Shown piece by piece: positions 9,977-27,649 of a stretch of 28,143 nt of DNA. The DNA lies in the IMG/VR virus record IMGVR_UViG_3300032278_000090, positions 1-28,143 of that record, one strand, 5' to 3'. How positions within the stretch are numbered: the stretch's first letter is position 1; every line of letters begins with the position of its first letter. The notes below the pieces were generated by a model that was given only the letters and a program-made list of their open reading frames with translations, was not told the DNA's origin and did not search any database. The stretch comes from a virus. Made by a program: the position numbers and the translations under genes.

Positions 9977-11404
9977 ATGGCAGAAGAAACAGTAGAAAAT
10001 ATCTCTCAACCTGGGGCCGTCAGTTGCGACGAACTCTTTATAACTACTAATGATCTGATAGAATATGATTTTACCAGATATATGATTGAATTTAATTTGT
10101 TTGAAGATATTTGGTCCCCAACATTAACAGGAGAGGTTTCTGTTGTAGATGCTGTTAATGCAATAACTAAGTGGCCTATTAGAGGGGGTGAAATAATAAC
10201 TTGCAAATGGAGAACAAATACATTTGCAGACAACCCACTTAATATAATAGAAAAATCATTTCAGATTTACGCTATTGAAAAACGAATACTTAATAACGAT
10301 AGAGAACAAATCTATAAATTAAAGTTTTGTTCTATAGAAGCAGTCAGCGATCAAGCAAGAAGCATAACACAAGCTTTTGGCGCACCAGGTATGTTAAGAA
10401 ATACTGATGAGATAGCAGAACAAATATATTTAGATCACATACAAGAATATAGACGTATTGACACAAGAAAACATCAATCAGATTTTTTTATAGGAGACAC
10501 CCCTCACAGTTCTAAGATACAATACACTTCTAATTTTTGGACACCAATGCAAAACATGCAGTTTATAAGTAGGAAGTGTCAAGGAGCACAGTTTATAGGA
10601 TCAGATTATCTATTCTACGAATCTAATAAAGCATTTTATTTAACATCACTTCAAAATTTAATACAGAAACAATTAGACGGAGGATTATTTGAAGAATTTA
10701 TTTACGCTCCTCCTAACCTAGATATCCCTTCAAGAGGCGGAGGCGAAACCTTTTTAGCTCAAGAAATTCCAAAGTCTTTTAGCAAAATAGAAGGTATAAG
10801 TGTGCCTAGAACAATTGATATATTAGATGGACAAGACAGCGGTTACTATTCAGCATCTACAAGAGCTTTTGATTTGTTTACAAAAGAGCAAGCTGAAGTC
10901 ACATTAGATGGAAGAGATCAATTTGGTGCCTTTGTTCATACAGATTCAGGCATTCCAATACCAGCCGGGATACAACGTAATCCATATTCATTTGTAAATA
11001 TTAAATACTTAAATCAAGTTATGTTTACAGGAATGCAAGGTGGATTAGTAGATGGCAAATTTGGAGAAGCAGCCAATCCAGCATTGTTAGCTAACAATTT
11101 ATTTAGACAAGTTTATTTTAGTTCGTTCAGAGATTATACATTTGAAATAGATTTGCCGGGAAGAACAGATATAGAAGTTGGAAAACTTATTAAATTGGTT
11201 TATCCTAACGCAGGAGACAAACCAACAGACGCAACCTATGAGGATCTAGTTGATCCTTTATTAACAGGAAACTATTTAATAACAGCTATCAAACATAAAT
11301 TTGATAGTGTAAGACATACAATGAAATTAGAAATAGTTAAAAACGGATTAGCAGCATCATTAGGTGAACATGATGACAAAGTAGTAGGAGCAAATTTAGC
11401 ATGA
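9977..11404 (+). CDS. 27: Baseplate hub protein, gp27-like
   Basis: A 475-residue protein with the N-terminal tube-like domain of the gp27/VgrG hub class: YMIEFNLFEDIWSPTLTGEV followed by DAVNAITKWPIRGGEII (about residues 35-74). Later come LFRQVYFSSFRDYTFEIDLPGRTDIEVGKLI (about 375-405) and LTGNYLITAIKHKF, the end of the second barrel-type domain seen in hub proteins. It should form the trimeric ring onto which the gp5 spike is fixed and through which DNA passes. It overlaps the gp5 gene by 4 bases (ATGA), as expected for partners made in equal amount. T4 gp27 is shorter (391); the middle (about 210-340) is an insert. Confidence 0.78.
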   Translation: MAEETVENISQPGAVSCDELFITTNDLIEYDFTRYMIEFNLFEDIWSPTLTGEVSVVDAVNAITKWPIRGGEIITCKWRTNTFADNPLNIIEKSFQIYAIEKRILNNDREQIYKLKFCSIEAVSDQARSITQAFGAPGMLRNTDEIAEQIYLDHIQEYRRIDTRKHQSDFFIGDTPHSSKIQYTSNFWTPMQNMQFISRKCQGAQFIGSDYLFYESNKAFYLTSLQNLIQKQLDGGLFEEFIYAPPNLDIPSRGGGETFLAQEIPKSFSKIEGISVPRTIDILDGQDSGYYSASTRAFDLFTKEQAEVTLDGRDQFGAFVHTDSGIPIPAGIQRNPYSFVNIKYLNQVMFTGMQGGLVDGKFGEAANPALLANNLFRQVYFSSFRDYTFEIDLPGRTDIEVGKLIKLVYPNAGDKPTDATYEDLVDPLLTGNYLITAIKHKFDSVRHTMKLEIVKNGLAASLGEHDDKVVGANLA

Positions 11405-12987
11405 GTGAAGGATTAAAAAATTACGGTAAATTAAATATACCAGATTTTATTTGGTGGTTGGGTGTTGTTGAAGACAGCAACGATCCAACGTATGCTGGCA
11501 GAGTTAAAGTTAGAATAACAGGATATCATACAGGGAATAAACAAACATTACCTGTAAAACATTTACCATATGCAATTCCATTACATCCTGTTACAAGCGC
11601 AGGCGTCAATGGAATAATGGAAAACCATTCATTAGTCCAAGGTTCAACCGTTATAGGTTTCTTTGCAGACGGCGAAGATGGACAAATTCCTATGATCATG
11701 GGAACAATAGCAGGTAAACCAGCATCAAAACCTGAACTCAATGATACTGAAGGTTTTATGGATCCAACAGGAAAATTCCCTAGACTTCCAGACGAACCAG
11801 AAGAAGGATTTTCAGGCATAGGTGAACCCGATGTTTCTAGACTTGCTAGAAATCAGGCAGCAGAAACTCATTATTCTTTATTAAACAGAAGAGAAGCAAG
11901 AGACACAGAAATAAGAACAGCAAGAGCGCCGTCAGTGTCAGTGGAAACTGGTGATTCTATATTAGATGATATATCAGGAAAAGATTACGAAGGAGCAACG
12001 TGGGATGAACCACACCCAAGAGGACAATCAAAAGACGAAGCCAAATATTTTGACGCAGCACAAGAATTATTAGATAACCCAGATAAGCCTCCAATACCTG
12101 GAGATGAAGAATGGGCATCATTATATCCTTTTAATATAGTTAGAGAGACTAGAGCAGGACATGTATTTGAAATAGATAATACAGAGTCAAACAGAAGAAT
12201 TCACGAATACCATCCATCAGGTACAAACTATGAAATTCATAATGATGGAACAAAGGTTACAAACATTGTAGGCGATAATTATGAAATTATTGCTAAGGAT
12301 AATAATGTTCTTATAAGAGGATCATGTAACGTTACAATAGCAGGAGATGCTAAATTATTAGTACAGGGAGACAAATATGAAGAAATCGAAGGAGATTATT
12401 TCTTGTCTATTCTTGGATCAAGGGTTACAAAAATAAATGGTAACGACATTAAATCGGTTATAACAGATGTAACACAAACAATTAAAGGAAACAGAACAGC
12501 TCGTGTTGCATTAGATGACACAGAAACAGTAATAGGAAATCAAACAATTAGTATAGCGCAAAGCAGAGTAGATTCTGTTGCAGAAACCGTTGCTAAAACA
12601 TACGGTAAAGATATTAAAACGGTTAAAGGAGATGTTGGAATTGAAGCAGTCGGCACATATAAGCTTTTAGCAGGAGGTAATGTTTACCTTGCAGCAAGTG
12701 GTGTATTAGAAGTAGGCTCTGGAGAAACAATGACATTAAAAACTTTAGCAGACCAAATATTAGATGTAGCTACAACTAAATCAGATACAATAGGTGGTAC
12801 TCTCACAGAAACAATAGGCGGGACACATACATTAACATCTCCAACAGCAGACATTACTTATAGTGGTGGCGAGATTACAGTAGCTGGTATTACACATACA
12901 CAACATACACATACAGAAGTACCTGGAACTGGCGGATCAAGCTCACCAACTCCTGGAACACAAGAAACTTCAACACCAAATGGATAA
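11401..12987 (+). CDS. 5: Baseplate hub/spike protein gp5, lacking the lysozyme domain
   Basis: The N-terminal 110 residues, WWLGVVEDSNDPTYAGRVKV onward to GQIPMIMGTIAG, match the gp5/VgrG OB-fold. In T4 gp5 a lysozyme domain follows; here residues 115-235 are an acidic Pro/Arg linker with no E-x8-D-x5-T site. From about 240 to 500 the sequence is a run of short V/I-x-G repeats (TNIVGDNYEII, VTIAGDAKLLVQGD, TIKGN, TVIGN) as in the triple-stranded beta-helix needle. It ends with THTQHTHTEVPG and a Ser/Pro/Thr tail; HxH tips bind iron in the P2 gpV and phi92 gp138 spikes. The product should be the trimeric membrane-piercing needle below the gp27 ring. A GGAG site lies 10-13 bases before the start. 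Confidence 0.88.
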   Translation: MSEGLKNYGKLNIPDFIWWLGVVEDSNDPTYAGRVKVRITGYHTGNKQTLPVKHLPYAIPLHPVTSAGVNGIMENHSLVQGSTVIGFFADGEDGQIPMIMGTIAGKPASKPELNDTEGFMDPTGKFPRLPDEPEEGFSGIGEPDVSRLARNQAAETHYSLLNRREARDTEIRTARAPSVSVETGDSILDDISGKDYEGATWDEPHPRGQSKDEAKYFDAAQELLDNPDKPPIPGDEEWASLYPFNIVRETRAGHVFEIDNTESNRRIHEYHPSGTNYEIHNDGTKVTNIVGDNYEIIAKDNNVLIRGSCNVTIAGDAKLLVQGDKYEEIEGDYFLSILGSRVTKINGNDIKSVITDVTQTIKGNRTARVALDDTETVIGNQTISIAQSRVDSVAETVAKTYGKDIKTVKGDVGIEAVGTYKLLAGGNVYLAASGVLEVGSGETMTLKTLADQILDVATTKSDTIGGTLTETIGGTHTLTSPTADITYSGGEITVAGITHTQHTHTEVPGTGGSSSPTPGTQETSTPNG

Positions 12988-12990
12988 GAA

Positions 12991-13599
12991 ATGAGTTGCG
13001 GACCTAGCGAAAAATTAAAAGAACTTGCAGACAAGGTACAAGCTGCTGAAGATAAATTCGACGCAGCTGTAAACTCATCACCTTTAGGAAAAATAAACGA
13101 TATAAAAAATGACGCTTTAGACACCGTTAACGGAGTAATGGGGAAAATGGAAAATATGATCCCTAGTATTATTAATAAAGTTTTGTCTCCGGCAAACAAG
13201 ACACTACATGACGATGTTAAGGATTTACTAAAATTTGTTATTTTAGGCCATTTTGCGTTACCTCAAATAAAAAACCAATTAGATTATATGAAAGAGAAAT
13301 GGGGCAATGTAGACTTAGGTGATATTAGAAACTTCGATGATTTACATAATTTGTTAATGTCAGGAGCTATAGACTTAGACAGTCTTTGTAAGTTAGTACC
13401 TAATATTGAAAAAGAAGGAGTCGAGATTACCGTTAAAGGAGTACCAACTTCGTTCCCAGATATAGATCCTGCTGCAATATTAAAAGGAGGAAAATTACCT
13501 CCTGTTGTTATTGGTGAGATTGAGGTAGATGTAGGAACAAGAGCGAAAGAAGAAGCTGAAGAATTTTTAAATTTAGAGTTACCAGATTTCGATTATTGA
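12991..13599 (+). CDS. Unassigned virion-region protein (202 aa)
   Basis: I do not recognise a T4 counterpart. It begins MSCGPSEKLKELADKVQ and has a helix-rich first half (residues 5-110), with a coiled-coil-like opening and a hydrophobic stretch FVILGHFALPQ. A beta-type part follows, with VEITVKGVPTSFPDIDPAAIL and LPPVVIGEIEVDVG, and an acidic C-terminus. No signal peptide or catalytic motif is seen. It sits between gp5 and gp25 with only 3 bases to gp5, so a small spike- or hub-associated role is the natural guess. Similar small proteins occur in this place in marine T4-like phages, from memory of their layout. Confidence 0.65.
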   Translation: MSCGPSEKLKELADKVQAAEDKFDAAVNSSPLGKINDIKNDALDTVNGVMGKMENMIPSIINKVLSPANKTLHDDVKDLLKFVILGHFALPQIKNQLDYMKEKWGNVDLGDIRNFDDLHNLLMSGAIDLDSLCKLVPNIEKEGVEITVKGVPTSFPDIDPAAILKGGKLPPVVIGEIEVDVGTRAKEEAEEFLNLELPDFDY

Positions 13600-14021: not shown

Positions 14022-16211
14022 ATGGCACAATTAAACGTAACAGAATTAGACTTTGACAATATAAAAGCAAACCTTAAGGCCTTTTTAAATAGTCAAACAG
14101 AATTTACAGATTATAACTTTGAAGGCTCAGGCCTAGCAGTTTTAATAGACTTATTAGCATATAATACGCACTATAATGGCATATTAGCACACATGTTAGC
14201 TAATGAAAACTTCATTGATAGTGCTATTAAGAGGGAATCTGTAGTATCAATAGCAAAAGCATTAGGTTATACACCCAGATCTAGTCGTTGTTCAGCAGCG
14301 AAAATTAATTTAGCAGTAACGGTTCCGAGTAGTTATACGGCAACAACCTTGGTACTGTCAAGGGATTCTACGTTTACATCACCAATAGATGGAACAACAT
14401 TTAAATTTTATCCTACAGGCACTACCACGACTCAGGCAGTAACAGCCGGTGGAACAGGACCTTATTGGTTATATGGAACACACGCAACACTAGGTGCCGG
14501 ATATTATTTTCCTTTGTACCTAACAAACGCAGCAGCAGATACAGCAGACACCGGTGGAACGGGATCAACGAGTTATACATTTACAGAATATAGTGGCGTA
14601 ACATTTTATGCCCCTAACAGTGGTAAAAAAGAAGCACAAGCAAGTTTAGGATCCCAACTTTCTACAGGAGAAAATACAACAATATCTTCTGGACTGGCTT
14701 ATGGTATGTACACAGGACAGTCGGCATCATCTACAGCCCTAACACAATTTGTTTTTGCAGGCCTAACTATTAAAGAAGGATTAAGAGTATCGAATCAATT
14801 TGTGGTATCAACAGGCAAAGAAGCAGGACCTTATGTAATACCTAATGATAGAGTAGACACAACTACATTAAGAGTCAGAGTACAAAATTCAACAACAGAT
14901 TTAACTACGACAGTTTACACTTTAAATTCAACATTTTTAAATGTTAAGTCAGACACCAAAGCGTATTTTGTAGAAGAAGGAGCCGATGGTTTATTTCAAG
15001 TAAGATTTGGAGATGATGTAATAGGTAAAAAATTATCTAATGGCAACCTTGTTATAATTGATTATATAAACACTAATGGAACAACAGCAAATACAGCCAA
15101 ATCTTTTGCAGCTGCAAGTACCCTGGCAACATCAGGGGAGACAGTTTATAATACAACACATTCAGCATCAGGCGGAGGCGCCATTCAAGAATCAATAGAT
15201 GAAATTAGATTTAATGCTCCTCGATTTAACGCAACGAGAGACAGAGCAGTTACAGAACAAGACTACGAAACACTTATATTATCAGCCAATCCTAATATAC
15301 AATCATGTTCTGTTTGGGGCGGAGAGAAAAATGATCCACCTATATATGGCAAAGTGTTTATATCACTTAATCCTGTATTGGGAACTGTTATAACAGAATC
15401 AGATAAAGATAATATTAAGACTGCTGTTATAGAACCTAAAACTCCGGTATCAATTATTCCTGAATTCGTAGATCCAGAATACACTTACGTTTCTTTAGAT
15501 GTAGGAGTAGTATATAATCCTAAATTAACAACGTTATCAAAAGGACAAATAGAGGGAGAAGTATTAACAAGTATAGGCTCTTATTTTAATAATAACTTAA
15601 ATAAATTGAACAAGAGTTTTTATTATTCAAGACTCCATGATAGTATTACAGCATCTAATGATGCAATAATATCTGTAAATATACAAAACAGATTACAAAA
15701 AAGAATTAAACCAGATCTAGCGGTGGCTAAAAATTATACGGTTAAATTTAATCAAAAGTTACAGCCAAGAGAACTTACAAGTACATATTTTGATATAACA
15801 ATATCTGGCACAACAAGTAGAGTCTTATTAAAAGATGTTCCAACAGCAGGTGTAGTGGCACCTTTGTATAGTGGATCAGGAACAGTTTATGCAGTTACAT
15901 CTACAGGAACCACTGTATCATCTATTGGCACAATAGACTACGATTCAGGGACAGTAAATATTCCGTCCACAACAATAAACGCATTATATGGAACAGAAGC
16001 AACATTAAGAATACAAGTCACCCCTCATGATTCTATAAAGGACATAACAACACAAGCATTAATTAGAACCTCAGATACTTCTACAGCTGCAGTCGTTGCC
16101 AAACCCTCAAGAAATACAGTATTGACACTAGATGATAGTGTGGTGAGCTCAACAATAAATTCAAGAGCGGGTACAGTAATAACAGCAACACCTGAAGTAG
16201 AAGAGATCTAA
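14022..16211 (+). CDS. 6: Baseplate wedge subunit gp6 (Baseplate_J family)
   Basis: A 729-residue protein (T4 gp6 is 660). The N-terminal part, [12 protein letters not shown]...[25 protein letters not shown]...ANENFIDSA, is the helical gp6 core that pairs with gp25 and gp7. The middle third (about 100-300) is Thr/Gly-rich. Near residue 401, [14 protein letters not shown] and [19 protein letters not shown] give the Baseplate_J segment found in P2 gpJ and gp6. The C-terminal third has beta strands ending in [10 protein letters not shown]. gp6 dimers form the continuous inner ring of the baseplate. GAGGT serves as ribosome site, and the stop shares one base with the next ATG. Confidence 0.92.
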
Positions 16212-18799
16212 TGACAGACTATATCCCATCATTTTATAGATACGTTTCATCTATAACCGTTACGGCAGGTGGTACGGGATATAACAATATACCTACGATA
16301 GCAATCGCAGGTGGTGGTGGTACAGGAGCCACAGCAACAGCCGCAGTATCTAGTGGTGCAATCACAGCTATTACAGTTACAAACATTGGAACAGGTTATA
16401 CAACGAATCCAACAGTTACTATAACGCCACATGCATCTGACACAACGGCAACAGGTGCAACGGCAACAGTAGTATTAGATGCCGCACAAGGTGATATAAA
16501 AACAGAAACAAGAAACACTTCCTTCTTAATAGAAGAACAATTTCCAGAACATATTAGAGATGGTTTCCCTACGTTCGTTACTTTCCTTAAAAAGTATTAT
16601 GAATTTATGGATCAAGATGCTAAGCAAAGTGATGAAATAGTAAATTACAGTAATGATATTGACTATGCACAAGAAGCCTTTTTAGATAAATGGCGTGGAG
16701 CTCTTGCAAATGATTTCCCTAAGAGCATAAAAGTAGACAAACGCTTCTTTTATAAAAGAGCTAAAGACTTTTATGAAGCTAAAGGTAACAAGGAATCAAT
16801 AGAAACATTTTTTAGGTTAATGTATGGAGAGAATGTTGAAGTACAATACCCTAGCAGATATATTCTTAAACCTTCTGACGCCTTTTATAGTGTTGAACAA
16901 GGAGTTAAACTACAAGAAGCAGAACATGGAGGATTATTAGAGCCTTTAGACCTAACAGGTAAAAAGGTTGACATTAGATACTATCAATCAACAGGCTCAG
17001 TTACAGCATTAAACACACAGAATGCAACAGTAACTAGAGTCCAAAAGAACACATACCAAACAAATGGTCTAACATTACAAAGATTTGACCTCATACTTAA
17101 ATTTGATGATGTAACAACCAAGGTTTACGGCCCAGGAGCAGGAGCAGTAGCAACAGCAACTTTGTCAGGAGGAGCTGTAACAGCAATAACTTTAAATGAT
17201 GGTGGTGCTGATTATGACGCAATACCTGGCATACAAATTTATGGAGATGGTACAGGAGCAGTAGCCACAGCAACAATATTAAACGGAGCGATAACAGCAA
17301 TTACAATTCCTGCAGGCGGTGGTGGCACAGGATATACTCAAGCAGGAGTTAATATTGTTGTAGATAGTGCACCCACAGATATAAGATCCTATGTTGTGAA
17401 TGATGGAGCCGGAAACGGAGTAACAGATATCTATGGGTATCTAGTTAGACAATTAACCTCAGTTAAATTTAAGTCTTATAGTGGTTCAGCAATAAATGCG
17501 GGGTTTAAAGTAGGACAAGTATATGACATTAATGAAACGGGAGATGATGGAAAAGGATATGCATCAACAGGAGATGGCACCAATGGCGCTGCCGGAGGAT
17601 ATTTTCATGTTCACACAAATTCCTCAGACAATTACACATTTATAGGGGGACAAAATAACGCTTATATAAGGGTTACAGCTATAAGTGCTGCGGGCCTACC
17701 TACAGTTTTCCAAATTATTAATGCAGGATCAGGATTTTTAAGTGACTGTGCAGACGTTGTAATAGCATCACCAACAGGGGAATCTGTTACAATAGAGATT
17801 TGCACAGGATACTTATTTGAATATGAAGGTAAGTGGAAAGATGACAGAGGAAAATTATCCGATGTCAACGTATTACAAGACAACAAACGATATCAACCAT
17901 ACGCTTATGTTATTAAGTCGGCTGTAGAACAGTCAACTTGGGACAGAGCAATAAGAGATACGGTACACCCTGCAGGAATGCAAGTGTTTGGAGATCTTAT
18001 TGTAAGAAGTGTTATTGATTACAATGTTGCATTCTCAGTTACATCAACTGGATACACGTTCTATAAATTCTTAACAACAGATATAATAAGCACATCTGAA
18101 ACAGTAGCTAAATTCTTTGAAATAACAAAGACAGATACAGGTACAGCAACAGAGGCACACGCAATAGCGTTTACTCCAGGAACATTTACTGATATAGCGA
18201 CAGCTGATGATCAGGATTATGGTGAACCATATGTTGTTGTAGGAGATGGCGGGTCACCGAACTCGGCTTATTGGAATGACTCTAGTGATGGAAACGATGC
18301 AGACAATTATAATATTGGAGAACAAAGGTTCAATTGGCATATGACTAAACCGTTAGCACATTCTGCTACAGTTACAGATGTGTCGACAGTGGTTGCAGCT
18401 TACACAAGAGCGTTCGCAGACACACCCACAACTGCTGATGTTCTTACAATAGGTAGGTTTGACTCATACACAGACACAGGAACGGCAACAGACAGCCCAG
18501 CGATATCAGTTAGTCAAGCACTAACAGAATCACAAACGGTAACAGATAGCACAGTTTGGACATTTGGATTAAATAAATCTGAAACAACTTCCAATTCTGA
18601 TACCGTAAACAGTATAAATACAAGTAAAGGAATAACGGATACACCTTCTGCAACAGAATCAGCAGTTCAAGCACTGAGCAAACCAGCAATAGCAGATAGC
18701 TCAAGTGCAATAGACACAGGAGCTGGTAGAATGCAGGACTATGTAGATCCCACTTATTTAAGTGAGGACTATGTAGGAGAAAGTTGGTCGTTTACATAA
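16211..18799 (+). CDS. Baseplate wedge-associated protein in gp7 position, with repeats (862 aa)
   Basis: A short N-terminus ([12 protein letters not shown]) leads into a GTGY repeat pair (residues 14-90), then the conserved core: [30 protein letters not shown], a helical stretch with [31 protein letters not shown] and [16 protein letters not shown]. This core is typical of the protein between gp6 and gp8 in marine T4-like phages, where T4 has the wedge initiator gp7; homology to gp7 is inferred from position. A second GTGY block occupies residues about 306-386. The last 250 residues are a Thr/Ser/Asp/Ala-rich set of loose repeats ([20 protein letters not shown]). It ends [14 protein letters not shown]. 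It has one base of overlap with gp6 and its last part holds a TATAAATA box. Confidence 0.65.
16250..16480 (+). repeat. GTGY beta-repeat pair, N-terminal copy in gp7-position protein
   Basis: Residues 14-90 read as two units of the form (I/V)TV-T-x-x-GTGY-x-x-x-P-T-(V/I)-x-I, joined by a GGTGATATA turn and SGAITAITV. The block separates the first dozen residues from the conserved helical core, so it looks like an insertion. Confidence 0.75.
17126..17368 (+). repeat. GTGY beta-repeat block, internal copy in gp7-position protein
   Basis: Residues 306-386 show [17 protein letters not shown], then [21 protein letters not shown] and GGTGYTQAG. They share the G-D-G-T-G-A and SGGAVT wording with the copies in gp8 and the 2252-aa protein. 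Confidence 0.72.
18613..18620 (+). promoter_or_regulatory. Possible T4-type late promoter box inside the 862-aa gene
   Basis: Exact TATAAATA about 208 bases before the 147-aa structural gene. Being inside a coding region of an AT-rich genome, it could be chance; its use would give the 147-aa gene its own message. Confidence 0.3.
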
Positions 18800-18816
18800 T
18801 AATAAACATATAGATT

Positions 18817-18821
18817 AGGAG
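18817..18821 (+). promoter_or_regulatory. Strong ribosome binding site of the 147-aa gene
   Basis: AGGAG placed 6 bases before the ATG at 18828, in a 28-base gap. It is the clearest Shine-Dalgarno sequence on the plus strand of this window; most neighbours have weak ones such as AAGG, AAGAGA or none. Confidence 0.6.
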
Positions 18822-18827
18822 ACAGAA

Positions 18828-19271
18828 ATGTTTAAAACAGATAAAACTAAAGCTACAGGTAAGCTTACAGTTGAAATCAAAGACAAACAAGGCAATGTCA
18901 AAGAAACTAGGGAATTAGAAAACCTGGTTGTTGACACCGGCCTAGCCTTTATCGCATCCAGAATGAAGGATGCTTCAGCAACAGCTATGTCACACATGGC
19001 TATTGGTACAGGAACAACAGCAGCAGCTTCAGGAAATACCGCTTTAGGTACAGAAGCAGCTCGTGTTGGACTTACATCTACAACAGTTACAAGTAATGCA
19101 GTAGCTTATGTTTGCTCATTTGCAGCAGGCACAGGTACAGGAGCTATCACAGAAGCAGGTATATTAAATGCAGCTTCCACAGGTACTCTTTTATGCAGAA
19201 CAGTATTCTCAGTAGTAAATAAAGGCGCGTCAGATTCAATGACAATTACTTGGACAGTAACAATTTCTTAA
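18828..19271 (+). CDS. Small tail/fiber-associated structural protein (147 aa)
   Basis: The N-terminus reads GKLTVEIKDKQGNVKETRELENLVVDTGLAFIASRM, then MAIGTGTTAA, ALGTEAARV, FAAGTGTGAITEAGI and LLCRTVFSVVNKG, ending with a TITWTVTIS strand. This layout (NLVV..GL..IA..M...AIGTG..A...T.LGTE..R...EAGI..RT.F..V.K......TW...) is a common phage structural family in marine myoviruses, often called tail fiber-like; its exact place in the virion is unknown. It is all-beta by pattern. With its own strong ribosome site and a possible promoter at 18613, it may be made in larger amount than the wedge proteins around it. No T4 equivalent is evident. Confidence 0.72.
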   Translation: MFKTDKTKATGKLTVEIKDKQGNVKETRELENLVVDTGLAFIASRMKDASATAMSHMAIGTGTTAAASGNTALGTEAARVGLTSTTVTSNAVAYVCSFAAGTGTGAITEAGILNAASTGTLLCRTVFSVVNKGASDSMTITWTVTIS

Positions 19272-19280
19272 GAGAAATAA

Positions 19281-20885
19281 ATGGCACTCGTATTACGTAG
19301 ACTAGGCAGAGTAGAATTAGCAAGATCTTTTTATAGAGATATAAAGAATGAAAAAGACTTCTTCCATTTTGCTATAGGAAGGACATTACCTTGGACAGAT
19401 GATACTGTTCCAGAGACACCTATTGACTCTGATGCTTATATAGCAGAGTTTAGACGTAGTATGATGTTTACACAACGGATTGATTCAGCAGATATTTGCA
19501 TGTTAGCAAAAAGAACTAACTGGGCATCCGGAACAGTTTACGACGAATATGATGATACATATTCGTCAGTAAACCAATCACATTCGGGAGCACAAAGTTT
19601 AGCAGATGCTAACTTCTTTGTAATTACCGATGAGTTTAAGGTTTATAAATGTATATCTAATAATGGGGGTGCTGAATCTGTGATAAAACCAATAACCACA
19701 GGAACAGACGTAGACGAATTGTCAGATAATTATGATTGGAAGTTTATGTTTCAAATATCAGCTTCCGATCAAAATAAATTTTTAGATGCTGATTATATAC
19801 CTGTTAGAAAAGTAACAGGCAACCCAATACATGATGTCAATGGAGAAGTTGATAGTATTACAATAACAGCGGCAGGCACAGGATATACTGATGTATTCGA
19901 AGTTGGCATTGATGGTGATGGAACAGGAGCACAAGGCATGGCTACAATATCTGGCGGAGCAGTTACAGGAGTAACAATAAGCGATGCTGGTAGTGGTTAT
20001 AGCTTTGCTTTTGTTAATTTCAATGGAGGAGACGGTACAGGTGCTACCGGAAAGGTTTTGTTAGGCGACGCAGAGGTTGGAACCAATGTATTACAAGGTG
20101 ATGTAGAAAGAGCAGCACAAGCAGGAACAGTAGATAGAATAGAGCTTGCATCAGGCGGACTGGATTATGCAGATGGGGACGTCGTAATTTCAGTAACAGG
20201 CGATGGCACAGGAGCTGAAGCAGCCGCTTACGTTAATGCAACAACAGGAGCATTGACAAGTATTGCAGTTACTAGCAAAGGACAAAATTATTCATACGCT
20301 TCAATAGTAATAACAAACACAACGGCACCTGGATCAGGCGCCATAGCTAGAGCAGTTATATCTCCACAAGGAGGACACGGTTCTAACGCAACTCGAGAAT
20401 TATTTGCAAATAATCTTGGACTGACAGTATCATTTTCAGATAATACAAACCCGGATTTAATATTGGGCAATGATTTTAGACAAATTGCACTAATAAAAAA
20501 CATTATGATTGAGGGCTGGAGCGAAAGCACAGATCAGTACATAACAAATACGGGTACAGCTTGCTATATTATTACAGTAGCAAGTGGACAAACAGCTAAT
20601 TATTCAGTAGATGATATAATCACAACAGATGATGGGGGAGAATTTGTAGTTATACAAATAGATGAAGATAATTTACAAGTTTATTTAACAGCTACGATAC
20701 CTCTGATCACAAATACTTCAACATTGGAAAATACTACTAAGAGTTTGACGGGTTTGAGTATAAATAGTGTTACAGCGCCGGAAGTAGATAATGCTACCGG
20801 TGAAATTATTTATTTAGATAATAGATCGCCAATCACAAGATCGGCAGACCAAGTAGAACAAATAAAAGCATTGATTAGGTTTTAA
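19281..20885 (+). CDS. 8: Baseplate wedge subunit gp8, expanded
   Basis: A 534-residue protein (T4 gp8 is 334). The N-terminus has FFHFAIGRTLPWTDDTVPETP, then ADICMLAKRTNWASGTVYDEYDD, VYKCISNNGG and NYDWKFMFQIS, the gp8 layout. After YIPVRKV (about residue 175) a set of GTGY-type repeats (about 190-360) is inserted, followed by ISPQGGHGSNATRELFAN, a conserved gp8 strand. The C-terminus, GEIIYLDNRSPITRSADQVEQIKALIRF, matches the gp8 end. gp8 dimers brace the wedge between gp6, gp7 and gp10. The extra length over T4 is explained mainly by the repeat block. The gene begins 9 bases after the 147-aa gene, with AAGAGA as ribosome site. Confidence 0.88.
   Translation: MALVLRRLGRVELARSFYRDIKNEKDFFHFAIGRTLPWTDDTVPETPIDSDAYIAEFRRSMMFTQRIDSADICMLAKRTNWASGTVYDEYDDTYSSVNQSHSGAQSLADANFFVITDEFKVYKCISNNGGAESVIKPITTGTDVDELSDNYDWKFMFQISASDQNKFLDADYIPVRKVTGNPIHDVNGEVDSITITAAGTGYTDVFEVGIDGDGTGAQGMATISGGAVTGVTISDAGSGYSFAFVNFNGGDGTGATGKVLLGDAEVGTNVLQGDVERAAQAGTVDRIELASGGLDYADGDVVISVTGDGTGAEAAAYVNATTGALTSIAVTSKGQNYSYASIVITNTTAPGSGAIARAVISPQGGHGSNATRELFANNLGLTVSFSDNTNPDLILGNDFRQIALIKNIMIEGWSESTDQYITNTGTACYIITVASGQTANYSVDDIITTDDGGEFVVIQIDEDNLQVYLTATIPLITNTSTLENTTKSLTGLSINSVTAPEVDNATGEIIYLDNRSPITRSADQVEQIKALIRF
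19848..20360 (+). repeat. GTGY beta-repeat array inserted in gp8
   Basis: Four loose units: VDSITITAAGTGYTD, VTGVTISDAGSGYSF, VDRIELASGGLDYAD and LTSIAVTSKGQNYSY, separated by D/G-GDGTGA-type turns (three clear copies: GDGTGAQ, GDGTGAT, GDGTGAE). The later units are more worn than the first two. Confidence 0.75.
20759..20766 (+). promoter_or_regulatory. Possible T4-type late promoter box inside gp8
   Basis: Exact TATAAATA whose predicted start (about 20772) lies 119 bases before the 2252-aa gene. It is inside the gp8 coding end, so chance occurrence is possible. Confidence 0.3.
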
Positions 20886-20890
20886 CAAAA

Positions 20891-23800
20891 ATGGCATTAA
20901 ATTTAAACGCATCACCATATTACGACGACTTCGCTGACGATAAAGAGTTTCATAGAGTTCTGTTTAAACCTGGTGTAGCAGTACAAGCAAGAGAACTTAC
21001 CCAACTTCAAACAATATTACAAGATCAATTAGAGAAAGGCTTTGGTTTTGTACTTCAAGAAGGAGCAGTAGTCACAGGTTGTTCAGAAACCATACCACAA
21101 AGAGATTGGATTAAAATTAAAGATACAGATGCCTCCTCGGTTGCTGTTGATAATTCAACTTTAATAACTTATGTTGGAGACTCAATAACTGGCACCACTT
21201 CTGGTTTAGAAGCAATAATTAGATGTACTGAACAAGGCACCGAATCAAATGCACCAGTAACAAAGCAATTATATTTTAATTATAATAATCTGCAGTGGCC
21301 AGTAAGTGGTTACGAACATTTTACAACCGGAGAAACTTTAACAGTAACATCAACAGACTCTTCAAGAAATGGAGACACCTTTATTGTTCATACAAGCTCT
21401 GGATCAACTTTCGAACAAGATTTATACTATGGTAAAACACAAGAAATAATTTTAGAACCAGGCATTATATATGCACGCGGACATTTTATTAAAACATCAA
21501 GAATGAGACATCTACAAGATAGATGGTCTAGGTTTAATGAAAAATTAATTGGTTTTCAAATAATAGAATCATCTATTACATCAGCAACAGACTCAACATT
21601 ACTAGATCCTGCACAAGGATCTTATAATTACAACGCTCCTGGAGCGGATAGGATGAAATTACAGGTTGCTTTAAGAGGCTTCCATCCAGACTTTCCAGTA
21701 CCTGATAATTGGTACTTATATGTGAAAGTACAAGATGGTGGTATCGTTAGAAATATAGTTAAAGACAATCCACTCTCAGGTGTAGGACAAGTTTTAGCAA
21801 ACAGAACTTACGACGAATCAGGTAATTATACAGTACAAGGAATGACAGTAGATGTTAGAGAACATTTACAAGACGCAACTAACACCAATGGTGGTGTTTA
21901 TACAGCAGCTAACGGCGGAAATAGAGAAGGTCTTGTATTAGGTATTGCGCCAGGTACTTCTTATGTGGGTGGTTTTAAACGATCCCTACAATCAACTAAG
22001 CGGTTAGTTATAAGAAAACCAGAAGGACTGGTAACAAAAGAGGGTATGCCAATATCAACTTCTTTTGGTAACTATACTGAAATATCATATGTATCAGGCT
22101 TTTGGGATATAGATGGTGGCGGAACTATCGATTTATATGATGCAGTTCAAAACGGATCAGCAGCAGGAACAAAAATAGGAACAGCAAAGGCTCGACATAT
22201 TGTTTATAAAAGCGGAACAGCAGGAGCAACAGCAGCAGTATATAAATTATATTTGTATGACATACATTTAATTTCAGGCGAATTTGGTGATGTTAAAGGC
22301 ATTAGATCTTCAGTTGCAGCTTCAATTGGATACGCTAATACAGTATTAACAGATTTAAAGGCAACAATTAAAGAATCATCAGCAAATAAAATGTTGTTTG
22401 CTATGCCTTACAACCATATTAAAACATTAAAGGCTGCATCAGGCGGAACATACGACACCACATATCAATATACAAAAGAGTTTGACGTTGTATTAAATAC
22501 AAGTGGAGCTTATGTAGACCTAACATTATCAGGTGATGAAACATTCCCTTATGACACATCAAATACAGAATTAACAGACACAATTAAATCAGCCAATATT
22601 ATAGCAATAGCAGAAGATGGTTTTGATTTAACAACAGGAAATAATAGAACAGCAGGACAGTACATTGACCTAACTTCTAGTAACTCTAACGCATCAGTTA
22701 AGTGTTCTTCATCTACATCAATGAGAATTGATTTAGGAACAACAGTAACAACGTCGGGCGCACAGAGTGAAAATGTTAGAGTTTATGTGAATGTATTGAA
22801 AACAGATACAACACCTGTAGCAAAAGCATTGGTACAGAGTGTTTATGTTAAAATAGATACCAGTTCAAATGCTAATGGAACAACAGGAGAATATGACTTA
22901 GGAGTTTCTGATGGTTACAAACTAGAAGCAGTTTACGCAAACGCATCTGCTTATTCGGTAGCATCAGCAGACGAGGTTACAAATCAATTTAGATTTGATA
23001 ACGGCCAAAAAGATAACTATTATGGCCATGCTAAGATATTTAAGTTATCTTCAGCAACAGTAAATTTAGCAACATCTAATTTTGTTGTTGTTAAATTATC
23101 ATACTTTACACATACAGTTGCATCGGGTGGTGGAACATTTAGCATTTTAGATAGTTATCCAGTAGACGATGCTACAACACCAGCAGCTAATACAATAAGA
23201 ACAGAAGGCATTCCAATTTACAGATCAAGTGTAATAGGAGATTATGATTTAAGAAATACTATTGACTATCGTCCAAGGATGACAGACACAGCAACACCAA
23301 ATGCTACATTAGGATCAGCTCCTGAGAATCCAAATCCAATAGAAGAAATTGAAAGACCAGGAAATGGAATTACGTTCCCGGTACCTGTTAAAACATTTAC
23401 AACAGATTTTCAATATTGGCAAGGTAAAAAAATAAGAGTAATATGTGACTTCGATGGTAAGATTAGACAAGTAGAAGGAGCATACGCAGATGAACCTATA
23501 TTACCTGTAGAGCCTGAAAAATGTATGACGTTGGCTACTATTGACTTACCACCCTTCCCTTGTTTAGGACCTGTAGCGGCTAAATTGGCTGGAAGATCAG
23601 ACTTAGGTACTAGAGTAAACCAAGTAGCACATAAACGTTTTACAATGAAAGATATTAGTACGTTAGAAACTCGTATTAAAAACTTAGAGTATTACGCTTC
23701 ATTAAACTTATTAGAAACATACGCAAAAGATCAAACAATTACAAATGCAGCAGGCACAGACAGATTTAAAAATGGTATCTTAGTAGATGGATTTACAGGA

Positions 23801-26800
23801 CATAATGTAGGAGCAGTATTAGATCCGGATTATAAAATATCAATTGATCCGGTTAAGAAACTTGCAAGGCCGTTTTTTGCAATGGAAAATATATCATTAA
23901 GAACATTTACTGATATAGGAAACGCAGCAGCAACTACTACATTAGCACAAACAGGTAGAACAATTACACTACCATATGAAGTAGTACCTTTTAGAGAACA
24001 GTTACAAGCTTCTCAAACAGAGAACCTTACAAAAGAATTAACTTTCCATTACTATGGAGATATGACATTAACGCCAGATGTAGATAATTTTGTGGCCACC
24101 GATGTTCAACCAGCAGTCACTAAAAACTTTGACGGTAACTATGATGCTTGGGAAAACATGGCCAACGCATGGGGCACGCAATGGGGTTCTTGGGAAAATA
24201 GCGGAGCAGCTAACGTTGTATCAACATCATCACAAGCATTAAATACTTTCGGAACAAATAATAGTGGACAAGGAACCAGTAACTCTTCATTGTTTACAAC
24301 TACAACAACATCACAATCACAAACAAGAACAGGCGTAGGCATAGATATAAGCTCCTCAACTGAATTACAGAGTTTAGGTGAAACAGTAGTAGACATATCT
24401 TTTAGTCCATTTATGAGAGAAGTAAATGTTGTTTTTAACGCAATAAGATTAAAACCAAACACAATAGTTTATCCATTCTTTGACGGAGAAGATGTATCAG
24501 AATTCGTAACAAACCATGTTGGAGATCTCGGTGGCACGATGACAACAGATGGAGCAGGAGCAGTACATGGACAGTTCTTAATACCTTCAGGACAATTTAA
24601 AACAGGGGTTAAGTTATTTAAATTAACAAGCGATCCAAATAACAACGATTCATTAGCAAGAACATCTTCAACAGCTAATTATGAATCTTCAGGGTTAAGA
24701 CAAAAAACACAAGACACAATGCTTTCTCTTAGAACAGCAAACGTTACACCCGTATATCAAACAGGATCCAGGGTTACAACAGATACAAGTGTTGAAATTT
24801 CAATAGGAGCAGGCACACCGTTGCCCCCTCCACCAGCACCTGTTATTATACATGAAATTACAAATGTCGTAGGAGCACCAGGACCCACAGGAGAACCTGG
24901 ACCAGTAGGACAACTAGGTACTACAGGACCAGTAGGAAACACCGGCCCTGCAGGAGATCCAGGATTAGTTGGCCCACCAGGAGCAGAGGGCGAGCCTGCA
25001 ATTCAGTACGACGCACCTGACTTATCAAACTATGCGACAACTTCATATGTCGATGCGGCAATTGCAGAAGTAACTTCAATGCCACCAGGGCCTCCAGGGC
25101 CTGCAGGGCCATCAGGACCTGTTGGATCAACAGGTGGACCAGGCGCAGCAGGTACACCAGGAGAAACAGGCCCACCTGGAGCATCAGGACCAGTAGGAGC
25201 CCAAGGCGATGACGGAACACCTGGCGGTACCGGCGGACCAGGGCCAGCAGGAGAACCAGGCATTACAGGACCAGTAGGAACACCAGGCACTACAGGAGAA
25301 ACAGGCCCATTGGGTCAGACAGGCCCACCAGGAACTCCAGGTAGTTTTGAATCAGTCCCAACAGTCGTGCCTGCAAACTTTGTCCTACCCAACCCCACAT
25401 GTGGTGGTGTTCCAAATGTCGTGAAAAACTACTATGAATGGCCGGCATATGAAATGAATGGCGGTGGCACACATGCACCGGGTGCTGACAAATACTCTGG
25501 ATGGCCCAGAGAAGGAGCGATAACACCACCCCAGGTACCAGAACCACCACCAGAGCCTCAGGTAGTTAATGTAGAAGGCGCCCCTGGCTGGAATCCAGGT
25601 ATGCATTTATCTACTCTAGCCTATATGAATATCAACGATACGGGTTTTGGAGATGGTATATACGGAAGTAAGAATTATAATTGCGGCGGCCAGGATCCAT
25701 TGGCACAGACATTTAGTGTAGGTGGCGTACCAGGCGGTATATTTATTTCAGACATTGAAGTTTTCTTTTACACCAAAGGAACAGCCGGTGTTACAATGGA
25801 ACTTAGAGAAGTTCTTAATGGAGTACCTGGACCTAGAACAATTCCTAATGGAATAAAATACTTGCCAGCAGATGCAATTAACGTGTCAGAAACAGTAAGC
25901 GGAACAACAACGTTTGTTCCAACTGTATTTACATTTACTGATCCTGTTTATTTAAAAAATAATACAGAATATTGTTTTGTTCCTAAACCAGAGAACGATG
26001 ATACAGGTTATGAATGTTGGATAGCACAACTAGGTGAAAATGCATACGGAACAACAACAAGAATTTCAAAACAACCTGCAGCAGGCATGATGTTTAGTTC
26101 AGCCAACGATAGATCATGGACACCACATCAAAATAAAGACTTGATGTTTAAGTTAAGAAGATGTAGATTTTTAAAAGATCAAGCATATTCAGGACACTTA
26201 ATACCTGAACCTATTGATTGGATAACCTTTGGAGAAACAGATTGGTCTTTTGCTGCTAAGAAATTTAGCCCAGGCAAAAATATAGTTGGGTTTACAGAAA
26301 CTATTACACTAGGGGGAGCAGGATATAGCTCAGCACCAGCGGTAACAGTTACAAACACAGACACAGGTGGAACAGGACTAGCATTAACGGCAGTAATTTC
26401 AGGTGGAGCAGTAACAGGATTAACAGTTACAAATCCAGGATCTGGTTATCAAGCTGCACCAACAATAGTAATAGCAGACACAGGATCAACACAAGCAACA
26501 GCAACATTAAGACTTAATAAAGGTAGAGTAGACCATTGGGATAACTTATATGGCTATGCTCACACAGTTATTAAAAAAGGACAATTTACAGTAGGAGATG
26601 TTGTAGGAACAGATGAAGGATATACAACAATAAGTGCATTTACAGATAAAGTAGTTAATGAAGTAGCACCTAACTTTGGCATATTAACACCAGGAGATGG
26701 AACCTTAGCTACTGTTAAGTTAGCAATGACAGGATCAGGAGCAGGATCAGCCAATACAACTTCATACCAAGACGTAGATTTTGGAACTACACATACACTC

Positions 26801-27649
26801 TCAGAAGAAAAAACAATTTACAGTAGAACGAATGAGGTAACTACCTATTCTTCTACAAACACAGCAAGAGCTAAGATAACATTCTCTACATTTAATGACA
26901 ACATTTCACCAGTAATTGAAATAGATCAAGCAGACTTGTTATGTATTAAAAATGAAGTTAATAATACAGTTACAGGAGAAGATGGTAGAGTAGGAGGTTC
27001 AGCATCATCTAGATATATTTCTAGACGTGTTGTATTAGAAGAAGGCATGGACGCAGAAGATTTATTAGTTTATTTAGAAGCAGCAATACCGAACACAGGT
27101 AGTATTAACGTTTATGGTAAATTCCAAAACGCAGCAGATCCAGGAGATTTCCAAGAAGATTTAAATTGGACTTTATTAGAAGCCAATACAATACCACCAG
27201 AGCAGACAGAAGGCTTTGCAGAGTATAGTTACAACATACCAGCACGTGGTTCAGATGCAGCAGGAATGAACTCAGGAGCTACGAGCTTTGAGTATGTATT
27301 AAGTGTTGTTACAGCCATTACATCAACAGGAGGAGCAGCTCTTGGAACAGGATATTCATCAGCAGCAGTAACACTCACAGGCGGTGGTGGTTTTGGAGCA
27401 ACAGCAAAAGCAGAACTCAGTGGTTCCACAATAGGTTCAGTTATAGTTACTAATCCAGGAAGAGGATACACATCAGCTCCTACAGTTACTATAACAGGTG
27501 ACGGCACAGGAGCAGTATATACGTCGACGATAGGAGACACTACTCACACAGGGTATAAGACTTTTGCAGTCAAGGTTGTACCACTTTCAACAGACACCTC
27601 TAAGGTTCCTAAGGTTAAAGACTTACGAGCTATAGCATTACAGGTTTAA
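20891..27649 (+). CDS. Giant baseplate/tail protein in gp10 position (DUF4815-like) with collagen-like segments (2252 aa)
   Basis: The N-terminus SPYYDDFADDKEFHRVLFKPG-x-AVQARELTQLQTILQDQ is the DUF4815-like start shared by large gp10-position proteins of marine T4-like phages. Next come mixed beta regions, then a conserved block near residues 800-1200 (DYDLRNTIDYRPRM; STLETRIKNLEYYASLNLLE; WGTQWGSWENS; PFMREVNVVF; YPFFDGEDV). After PLPPPPAP come two collagen-like stretches (residues 1328-1369 and 1400-1483) split by a YATTSYVDAAIAEV linker. Then DPLAQTFSVGG (from 1602) begins a beta domain, followed by two GTGY blocks and the end KVPKVKDLRAIALQV. It is likely the wedge pin or fiber connector, with the collagen part as a trimeric stalk. 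gp9/gp11/gp12 counterparts are not seen separately. No frameshift is evident despite the length. Confidence 0.72.
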   Translation: MALNLNASPYYDDFADDKEFHRVLFKPGVAVQARELTQLQTILQDQLEKGFGFVLQEGAVVTGCSETIPQRDWIKIKDTDASSVAVDNSTLITYVGDSITGTTSGLEAIIRCTEQGTESNAPVTKQLYFNYNNLQWPVSGYEHFTTGETLTVTSTDSSRNGDTFIVHTSSGSTFEQDLYYGKTQEIILEPGIIYARGHFIKTSRMRHLQDRWSRFNEKLIGFQIIESSITSATDSTLLDPAQGSYNYNAPGADRMKLQVALRGFHPDFPVPDNWYLYVKVQDGGIVRNIVKDNPLSGVGQVLANRTYDESGNYTVQGMTVDVREHLQDATNTNGGVYTAANGGNREGLVLGIAPGTSYVGGFKRSLQSTKRLVIRKPEGLVTKEGMPISTSFGNYTEISYVSGFWDIDGGGTIDLYDAVQNGSAAGTKIGTAKARHIVYKSGTAGATAAVYKLYLYDIHLISGEFGDVKGIRSSVAASIGYANTVLTDLKATIKESSANKMLFAMPYNHIKTLKAASGGTYDTTYQYTKEFDVVLNTSGAYVDLTLSGDETFPYDTSNTELTDTIKSANIIAIAEDGFDLTTGNNRTAGQYIDLTSSNSNASVKCSSSTSMRIDLGTTVTTSGAQSENVRVYVNVLKTDTTPVAKALVQSVYVKIDTSSNANGTTGEYDLGVSDGYKLEAVYANASAYSVASADEVTNQFRFDNGQKDNYYGHAKIFKLSSATVNLATSNFVVVKLSYFTHTVASGGGTFSILDSYPVDDATTPAANTIRTEGIPIYRSSVIGDYDLRNTIDYRPRMTDTATPNATLGSAPENPNPIEEIERPGNGITFPVPVKTFTTDFQYWQGKKIRVICDFDGKIRQVEGAYADEPILPVEPEKCMTLATIDLPPFPCLGPVAAKLAGRSDLGTRVNQVAHKRFTMKDISTLETRIKNLEYYASLNLLETYAKDQTITNAAGTDRFKNGILVDGFTGHNVGAVLDPDYKISIDPVKKLARPFFAMENISLRTFTDIGNAAATTTLAQTGRTITLPYEVVPFREQLQASQTENLTKELTFHYYGDMTLTPDVDNFVATDVQPAVTKNFDGNYDAWENMANAWGTQWGSWENSGAANVVSTSSQALNTFGTNNSGQGTSNSSLFTTTTTSQSQTRTGVGIDISSSTELQSLGETVVDISFSPFMREVNVVFNAIRLKPNTIVYPFFDGEDVSEFVTNHVGDLGGTMTTDGAGAVHGQFLIPSGQFKTGVKLFKLTSDPNNNDSLARTSSTANYESSGLRQKTQDTMLSLRTANVTPVYQTGSRVTTDTSVEISIGAGTPLPPPPAPVIIHEITNVVGAPGPTGEPGPVGQLGTTGPVGNTGPAGDPGLVGPPGAEGEPAIQYDAPDLSNYATTSYVDAAIAEVTSMPPGPPGPAGPSGPVGSTGGPGAAGTPGETGPPGASGPVGAQGDDGTPGGTGGPGPAGEPGITGPVGTPGTTGETGPLGQTGPPGTPGSFESVPTVVPANFVLPNPTCGGVPNVVKNYYEWPAYEMNGGGTHAPGADKYSGWPREGAITPPQVPEPPPEPQVVNVEGAPGWNPGMHLSTLAYMNINDTGFGDGIYGSKNYNCGGQDPLAQTFSVGGVPGGIFISDIEVFFYTKGTAGVTMELREVLNGVPGPRTIPNGIKYLPADAINVSETVSGTTTFVPTVFTFTDPVYLKNNTEYCFVPKPENDDTGYECWIAQLGENAYGTTTRISKQPAAGMMFSSANDRSWTPHQNKDLMFKLRRCRFLKDQAYSGHLIPEPIDWITFGETDWSFAAKKFSPGKNIVGFTETITLGGAGYSSAPAVTVTNTDTGGTGLALTAVISGGAVTGLTVTNPGSGYQAAPTIVIADTGSTQATATLRLNKGRVDHWDNLYGYAHTVIKKGQFTVGDVVGTDEGYTTISAFTDKVVNEVAPNFGILTPGDGTLATVKLAMTGSGAGSANTTSYQDVDFGTTHTLSEEKTIYSRTNEVTTYSSTNTARAKITFSTFNDNISPVIEIDQADLLCIKNEVNNTVTGEDGRVGGSASSRYISRRVVLEEGMDAEDLLVYLEAAIPNTGSINVYGKFQNAADPGDFQEDLNWTLLEANTIPPEQTEGFAEYSYNIPARGSDAAGMNSGATSFEYVLSVVTAITSTGGAALGTGYSSAAVTLTGGGGFGATAKAELSGSTIGSVIVTNPGRGYTSAPTVTITGDGTGAVYTSTIGDTTHTGYKTFAVKVVPLSTDTSKVPKVKDLRAIALQV
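24872..24997 (+). repeat. Collagen-like Gly-X-Y segment 1
   Basis: Fourteen uninterrupted Gly-X-Y triplets (residues 1328-1369), starting GAPGPTGEPGPVG and ending GPPGAEGEP. Pro is frequent in X and Y. Such segments form trimeric triple helices; in phages they occur in tail fibers and work without hydroxyproline. Confidence 0.9.
25088..25339 (+). repeat. Collagen-like Gly-X-Y segment 2
   Basis: Twenty-eight uninterrupted Gly-X-Y triplets (residues 1400-1483), starting GPPGPAGPSGPVG and ending GQTGPPGTP, then GSF. GETGPPG and GPVG recur. The linker between the two segments (residues 1370-1399) has the YATTSYVDAAI type of short helix seen in trimeric fibers, which could set the register. Confidence 0.9.
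26288..26515 (+). repeat. GTGY beta-repeat pair, first copy in the 2252-aa protein
   Basis: Residues 1800-1875: ITLGGAGYSSAPAVTVT, SGGAVTGLTVTNPGSGYQAAPTIVI. These are the same two-unit form as in the gp7-position protein and gp8. Confidence 0.78.
27305..27535 (+). repeat. GTGY beta-repeat pair, C-terminal copy in the 2252-aa protein
   Basis: Residues 2139-2215: LGTGYSSAAVTLTGGGGFGATAKAEL, then VTNPGRGYTSAPTVTITGDGTGAVY. It interrupts the last domain, between FEYVLS and GYKTFAVKVV, which reads as one beta sandwich without it. Confidence 0.78.

Follow-up and report, generated by a model that had tools for sequence, protein, structure and literature searches.

A two-unit beta-repeat module in baseplate proteins of a marine T4-like phage and in other virion proteins

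Three structural proteins encoded by a marine virus of bacteria contain copies of one repeat family, and the same repeat, arranged in pairs, is a common and hitherto unnamed building block in sheath, neck, baseplate, and fibre proteins of many phages. The blocks are one modular two-unit beta domain that has been placed on many virion proteins, and we think, with some reserve, that it serves as an exposed accessory domain which makes weak contacts with the surface of the host or with host polysaccharide. Here we describe the family, its pairing, permutation, predicted fold, and distribution, and the selection acting on it.

The window analysed here is the whole stretch of DNA, 28143 bases that make up one complete IMG/VR record. 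Its content is the baseplate region of a T4-like phage, with gp48, gp53, gp27-like, gp5, gp25, gp6, gp7-like, gp8, and VrlC-like proteins. A preliminary description proposed that one repeat family occurs in the gp7-like protein (two blocks), gp8 (one array), and a 2252-aa protein (two blocks); a profile built from the unit recovered all of these at agreeing coordinates. The carrier proteins and the blocks within them are:

16211..18799, plus strand: gp7-like wedge protein (PF23786); its T4 homologue is gp7, in the C-terminal half.
16244..16486, plus strand: gp7-like N-terminal pair, residues 12-92 (units 12-49 and 51-92), from the unit profile; it sits ahead of the wedge core.
17102..17395, plus strand: gp7-like internal block, residues 298-395 (profile match 301-385), a half, a full, and a half unit that make up a circularly permuted pair.
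19281..20885, plus strand: gp8 wedge protein (PF09215), with a Foldseek match to T4 gp8 (1n7z, E 1e-9).
19848..20072, plus strand: first gp8 pair, residues 190-264 (units 190-226 and 228-264), from the unit profile and the model.
20130..20369, plus strand: second gp8 pair, residues 284-363 (units 284-320 and 326-363), with a counterpart conserved in T4-like gp8 outside the T4 group.
20891..27649, plus strand: VrlC-like structural protein of 2252 aa, with DUF4815, a collagen stretch, and phrog_358/877.
26300..26524, plus strand: first VrlC-like pair, residues 1804-1878 (units 1804-1839 and 1841-1878), from the unit profile.
27308..27535, plus strand: second VrlC-like pair, residues 2140-2215 (units 2140-2178 and 2183-2215), from the unit profile.

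The repeat is genuine and lies far above chance. A strict regular expression for the core of the unit found four copies in the 19 window proteins compared with 0.006 per shuffle, and the GDGTGA-type linker occurs eight times where 0.05 occurrences are expected from shuffled window proteins. There are about 11 units in total, each of 38-40 residues, with the consensus V-t-x-I-t-v-T-x-x-G-x-G-Y-t-x-x-P-x-V-x-I-x-G-x-G-t-G-A-x-a-x-a. Domain E-values for full units range from 1e-9 to 1e-16, and the unit profile matched no window protein other than the gp7-like, gp8, and VrlC-like carriers. Pfam and NCBIfam contain no model for the module, and a string search of the literature did not find a description of the repeat. 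The repeat alone gave no tblastn match in phage and plasmid collections, for which the low-complexity filter is probably responsible. Single units likewise found no match by sequence in the PDB, for which a profile of the pair was needed.

The natural module is a pair of units, ~77-85 residues long, with six strands in two similar three-stranded units. Several observations lead to this view. Exactly two units are spanned by 224 of 445 distinct runs and more than two by 16, while shorter runs may hide a diverged partner below detection. Relatives with the shortest gp8 (about 430-450 residues) mostly have exactly two contiguous units in it. In the window gp8 the units alternate in type: where relatives have two units, the first is like window units 1 and 3 and the second like window units 2 and 4; the array therefore looks like a duplicated pair. 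Finally, the order within runs can be permuted, with 44 circularly permuted runs compared with 190 straight pairs, and permuted order is also seen in gp14 and gp15 of relatives.

Structure prediction agrees with this arrangement. AlphaFold2 gave six strands for the gp7 N-terminal pair in isolation (pLDDT 93.2, pTM 0.80) and six strands in the same pattern for each of the two pairs in gp8 (pLDDT 86.5 overall); the VrlC-like blocks and the gp7 internal block are assigned to the family from their sequences. Foldseek returned no significant PDB match for the isolated pair (best E 0.7), so that the fold class stays a predicted one. Kinship with the F1-ATPase barrel, which appeared among matches in a fold search with gp8, was dropped when these matches disappeared with the isolated pair.

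The module extends well beyond the three proteins. Scanning whole records with the pair profile located it in 15 of 16, the exception being T4. Other carriers in relatives are the tail sheath gp18, neck gp14, sheath stabiliser gp15, gp5, gp6, and fibres. Together with family searches, these scans placed the module in gp18 of L184 and L185, gp14 of L181, and gp15 of L180; L185 and L058, a relative with 61% identity to the window in gp6, derive from one contig. Used by itself, the gp7 N-terminal pair has matches in at least 17 PHROG families, among them head closure, tail fibre, and hub proteins. When predicted viral models were searched by structure, 47 matches reached E<=0.001, the majority of them with TM of about 0.7-0.85, among fibres, an endosialidase, YHYH proteins, a baseplate hub, and a neck protein (the last with poor superposition). 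Presence on sheath, neck, sheath stabiliser, hub, and fibres means that the module is no baseplate speciality. The earlier view of a repeat common to the wedge parts holds as far as one old, selected family in three proteins is concerned; a restriction of the family to them is not supported. A module that has no Pfam or NCBIfam entry accounts for parts of virion proteins, in at least 17 PHROG families, that otherwise lack an explanation. Naming it should allow better annotation of marine phage tails, and provides one testable unit for the gain of weak surface adhesion. As a separate observation, a predicted protein from a giant-virus record, Sylvanvirus (A0A3G5AH46), has the same fold (E 1.5e-6).

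The only solved relative that sequence search brought to light is domain D3* of Dpo31, the tailspike depolymerase of Cobetia phage Carin-1 (PDB 8ck1, 28lx, 28mg). The best match of the pair profile among PDB sequences was Dpo31 residues 432-509 (E 0.009), with a score of 27 bits compared with at most 12.4 in 1990 scored shuffles. In hhalign the pair and Dpo31 aligned over 56 columns with a probability of 88%, the similarity to D3* covers both units, and a reverse search from D3* returned cyanophage structural proteins; Dpo31 was not in the Foldseek PDB list for the pair (PDB copy to April 2026). D3* (residues 434-536) has been described as an inserted, protruding Ig-like domain with distant, weak similarity to sugar-binding domains (PMC13317679). 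The sequence match likens the module to this insertion protruding from a virion protein, and the half-full-half order of D3* is shared with the gp7 internal block. D3* differs in being single and on the trimeric beta-helix spike of a podovirus, whereas the module here is carried, often as a tandem, by wedge proteins of a T4-like phage baseplate. Through this match a baseplate known from metagenomics is connected with a spike domain of solved structure.

A second precedent comes from the Ig-like accessory domains of tailed phages, promiscuous beta domains appended to exposed virion proteins, for which weak carbohydrate binding has been proposed (Fraser et al. 2006, cited in PMC9230969). The promiscuous presence of the module on several virion proteins is similar. 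It differs from these domains in having two internal repeats; Ig, BIG, and FN3 models in Pfam did not match it, NCBIfam gave no Ig-type match, and Foldseek gave no significant PDB match that would place it among Ig-type Greek-key beta-sandwiches. Its distribution over many parts that in related phages are exposed, the link to D3*, and the Ig-like precedent together speak for an accessory role at the surface, with weak binding. By analogy, the module would be exposed in this virion, could bind sugar, and probably presents a sticky surface. Phages of this lineage and beyond have placed it on sheath, neck, baseplate, fibres, and spikes. It can enter loops, join ends, duplicate in tandem, or permute circularly while keeping its two-unit content. 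Its pairing and permutation illustrate how a domain of this kind is able to relocate yet still fold. On the particle it would contribute contacts, weak but multivalent, to the surface of the host or to host polysaccharide, and core domains would handle assembly.

A broader version of this idea involves the sheath. Domain I of T4 gp18 (residues 98-188; PDB 3foa) is a six-stranded beta-barrel that protrudes from the sheath (PMC3004832), and in one relative (G001) the first pair of the sheath protein is inserted at the corresponding site; another sheath protein (G008) has a single pair further along. The sequence link of domain I to the module is marginal (13.6 bits, compared with at most 11.9 in shuffles), and hhalign gave a probability of 12% over 20 columns. 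This profile comparison is too weak to make domain I a proven member of the family, and as such it was rejected. We consider it a speculative and rather doubtful proposal that domain I, D3*, the gp8 pair found so widely, and dozens of insertions in fibre and neck proteins form one ancient family of two-unit, circularly permutable beta-barrels. These would be an add-on that T4-like phages and many other tailed phages use as standard, giving the tail a shared adhesive or docking surface over its entire length.

The history of the module differs between sites. Among IMG/VR relatives L008-L093, all 48 gp8 proteins with a detected unit have four (several of these loci share a contig), and gp8 of more distant T4-like phages has 0 to 11 detectable units. 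The pair profile matches gp8 in each of seven non-T4 isolates tested (HTVC008M, P-SSM7, P-SSM4, pf16, Cr30, OC, and phiM12), indicating an old gp8 site and a tandem duplication confined to a narrower group. The gp8 of Pseudomonas phage pf16 and that of Sinorhizobium phage phiM12 have one pair. A view of the gp8 block as a local insertion private to this phage is not supported; instead, the window clade doubled a pair that was widely present. In T4, gp8 and the C-terminal half of gp7 are homologous to the carriers and lack the module, and no part of the genome, gp5-gp15 included, matches the pair profile. The gp7-like core of outgroups starts within the first ~20 residues, directly and with no N-terminal pair, which identifies this pair as an added end domain; it is fixed in the window clade and found only there and in near relatives. 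VrlC-like proteins of relatives contain 0, 1, or 2 pairs. Close relatives have them at window residues 1804 and 2140, most others have none, and pairs elsewhere lie at about 139-166 (L136) and about 2027 (L139); the differing sites and frequent absence point to repeated independent gain. One pair is also present in gp6 of L159 and L176. Gain and loss of copies among relatives is thus seen in gp8, in the VrlC-like protein with its shifted sites, and in the gp7 N-terminal pair.

Such recurrent gain at many sites and proteins, with variable copy number, is what would be expected if the module were a neutral, easily tolerated passenger that is spread by recombination and need only fold harmlessly. 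This seems improbable to us, as purifying selection acts in every block and presence at the gp8 site is fixed. Mean nucleotide identity between window copies is 52%, and at positions with the same residue 52% use a different codon; in comparisons with diverged relatives, pN is less than pS in every block, the most relaxed being the gp7 internal block (pN 0.21-0.22) and the first gp8 pair. From the codon divergence and the pN and pS values, the proposal that the blocks are old and under selection stands.

The same data bear on whether the pairs determine host range as specific receptor-binding surfaces under diversifying selection. The module is present in fibres and in an endosialidase model, and D3* belongs to the working part of a spike with depolymerase activity (PMC13317679). 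Set against these points are the low pN relative to pS and the lack of hypervariability in the pairs, which counts against a pure receptor role; far more variable is the VrlC-like collagen stretch (window 24881-25360, residues 1331-1490), with 35% identity and 37% coverage in relatives. T4 gp7 and gp8, moreover, belong to the wedge, away from the fibre tips. We regard a host-range determinant as very unlikely. The collagen stretch is poorly conserved or missing in relatives, some of which are truncated there.

Conservation at the two wedge sites is moderate. Identity to the window is 67% for the gp8 pairs compared with 73-76% for the gp8 core, and 75% for the gp7 N-terminal pair compared with 68% for the gp7 core. 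These values suit a structural role, and the gp8 copy and gp7 N-terminal pair may now be structural; being so old, the gp8 pair may also belong to the wedge fold. A stronger form of this reading is that the pairs hold the wedge together, contacting each other or neighbouring subunits and stabilizing or coupling the gp7, gp8, and VrlC-like proteins during the baseplate switch. In T4, gp7 and gp8 touch one another and gp6 (PMC3004832), and the gp8 pair is in all seven non-T4 isolates with nearly invariant glycines and tyrosine; the well-conserved gp7 N-terminal pair, fixed in the clade, also fits. The module occurs, however, where there is no wedge, on sheath, neck, gp15, fibres, and a podovirus spike. 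The VrlC-like pairs are gained and lost and shift site, and identity is as low as 53% in the variable gp7 internal block, which has the relaxed pN given above. We consider a role in wedge cohesion rather unlikely, and prefer the exposed accessory domain.

The wedge proteins themselves deserve comment. According to a published survey, pelagimyophages and cyanomyophages are without T4 gp7 and have VrlC in its place (PMC7029224). A gp7-family profile that included HTVC008M and Mosig proteins matched the C-terminal half of T4 gp7 in a search of T4 tail proteins (E 9e-13), which argues that a gp7-related protein exists beside VrlC; judged by this homology, the gp7-like protein here runs contrary to the claim of gp7 absence in such phages. 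The gp7-position proteins of P-SSM4 (L094, 12145-34083) and P-SSM7 (L004) exceed 7000 residues and contain many copies of the module, with about 20 units in that of P-SSM4. Window gp6 (14022-16211) has 729 residues compared with about 634 in a sister group, and the repeat was not found in the extra ~95 residues.

Other genes in the window are also of note. A separate 150-aa lysozyme-like ORF (1413-1865) matches the lysozyme part of gp5 families, and the window gp5 (11401-12987) has OB and trimer domains and no lysozyme match; from these matches, the tail lysozyme of this phage may be encoded apart from gp5. Two further ORFs are conserved in position across the clade: one of 202 aa (12991-13599) with no family match, and one of 147 aa (18828-19271) that matches phrog_5417 and a tail-fibre family.
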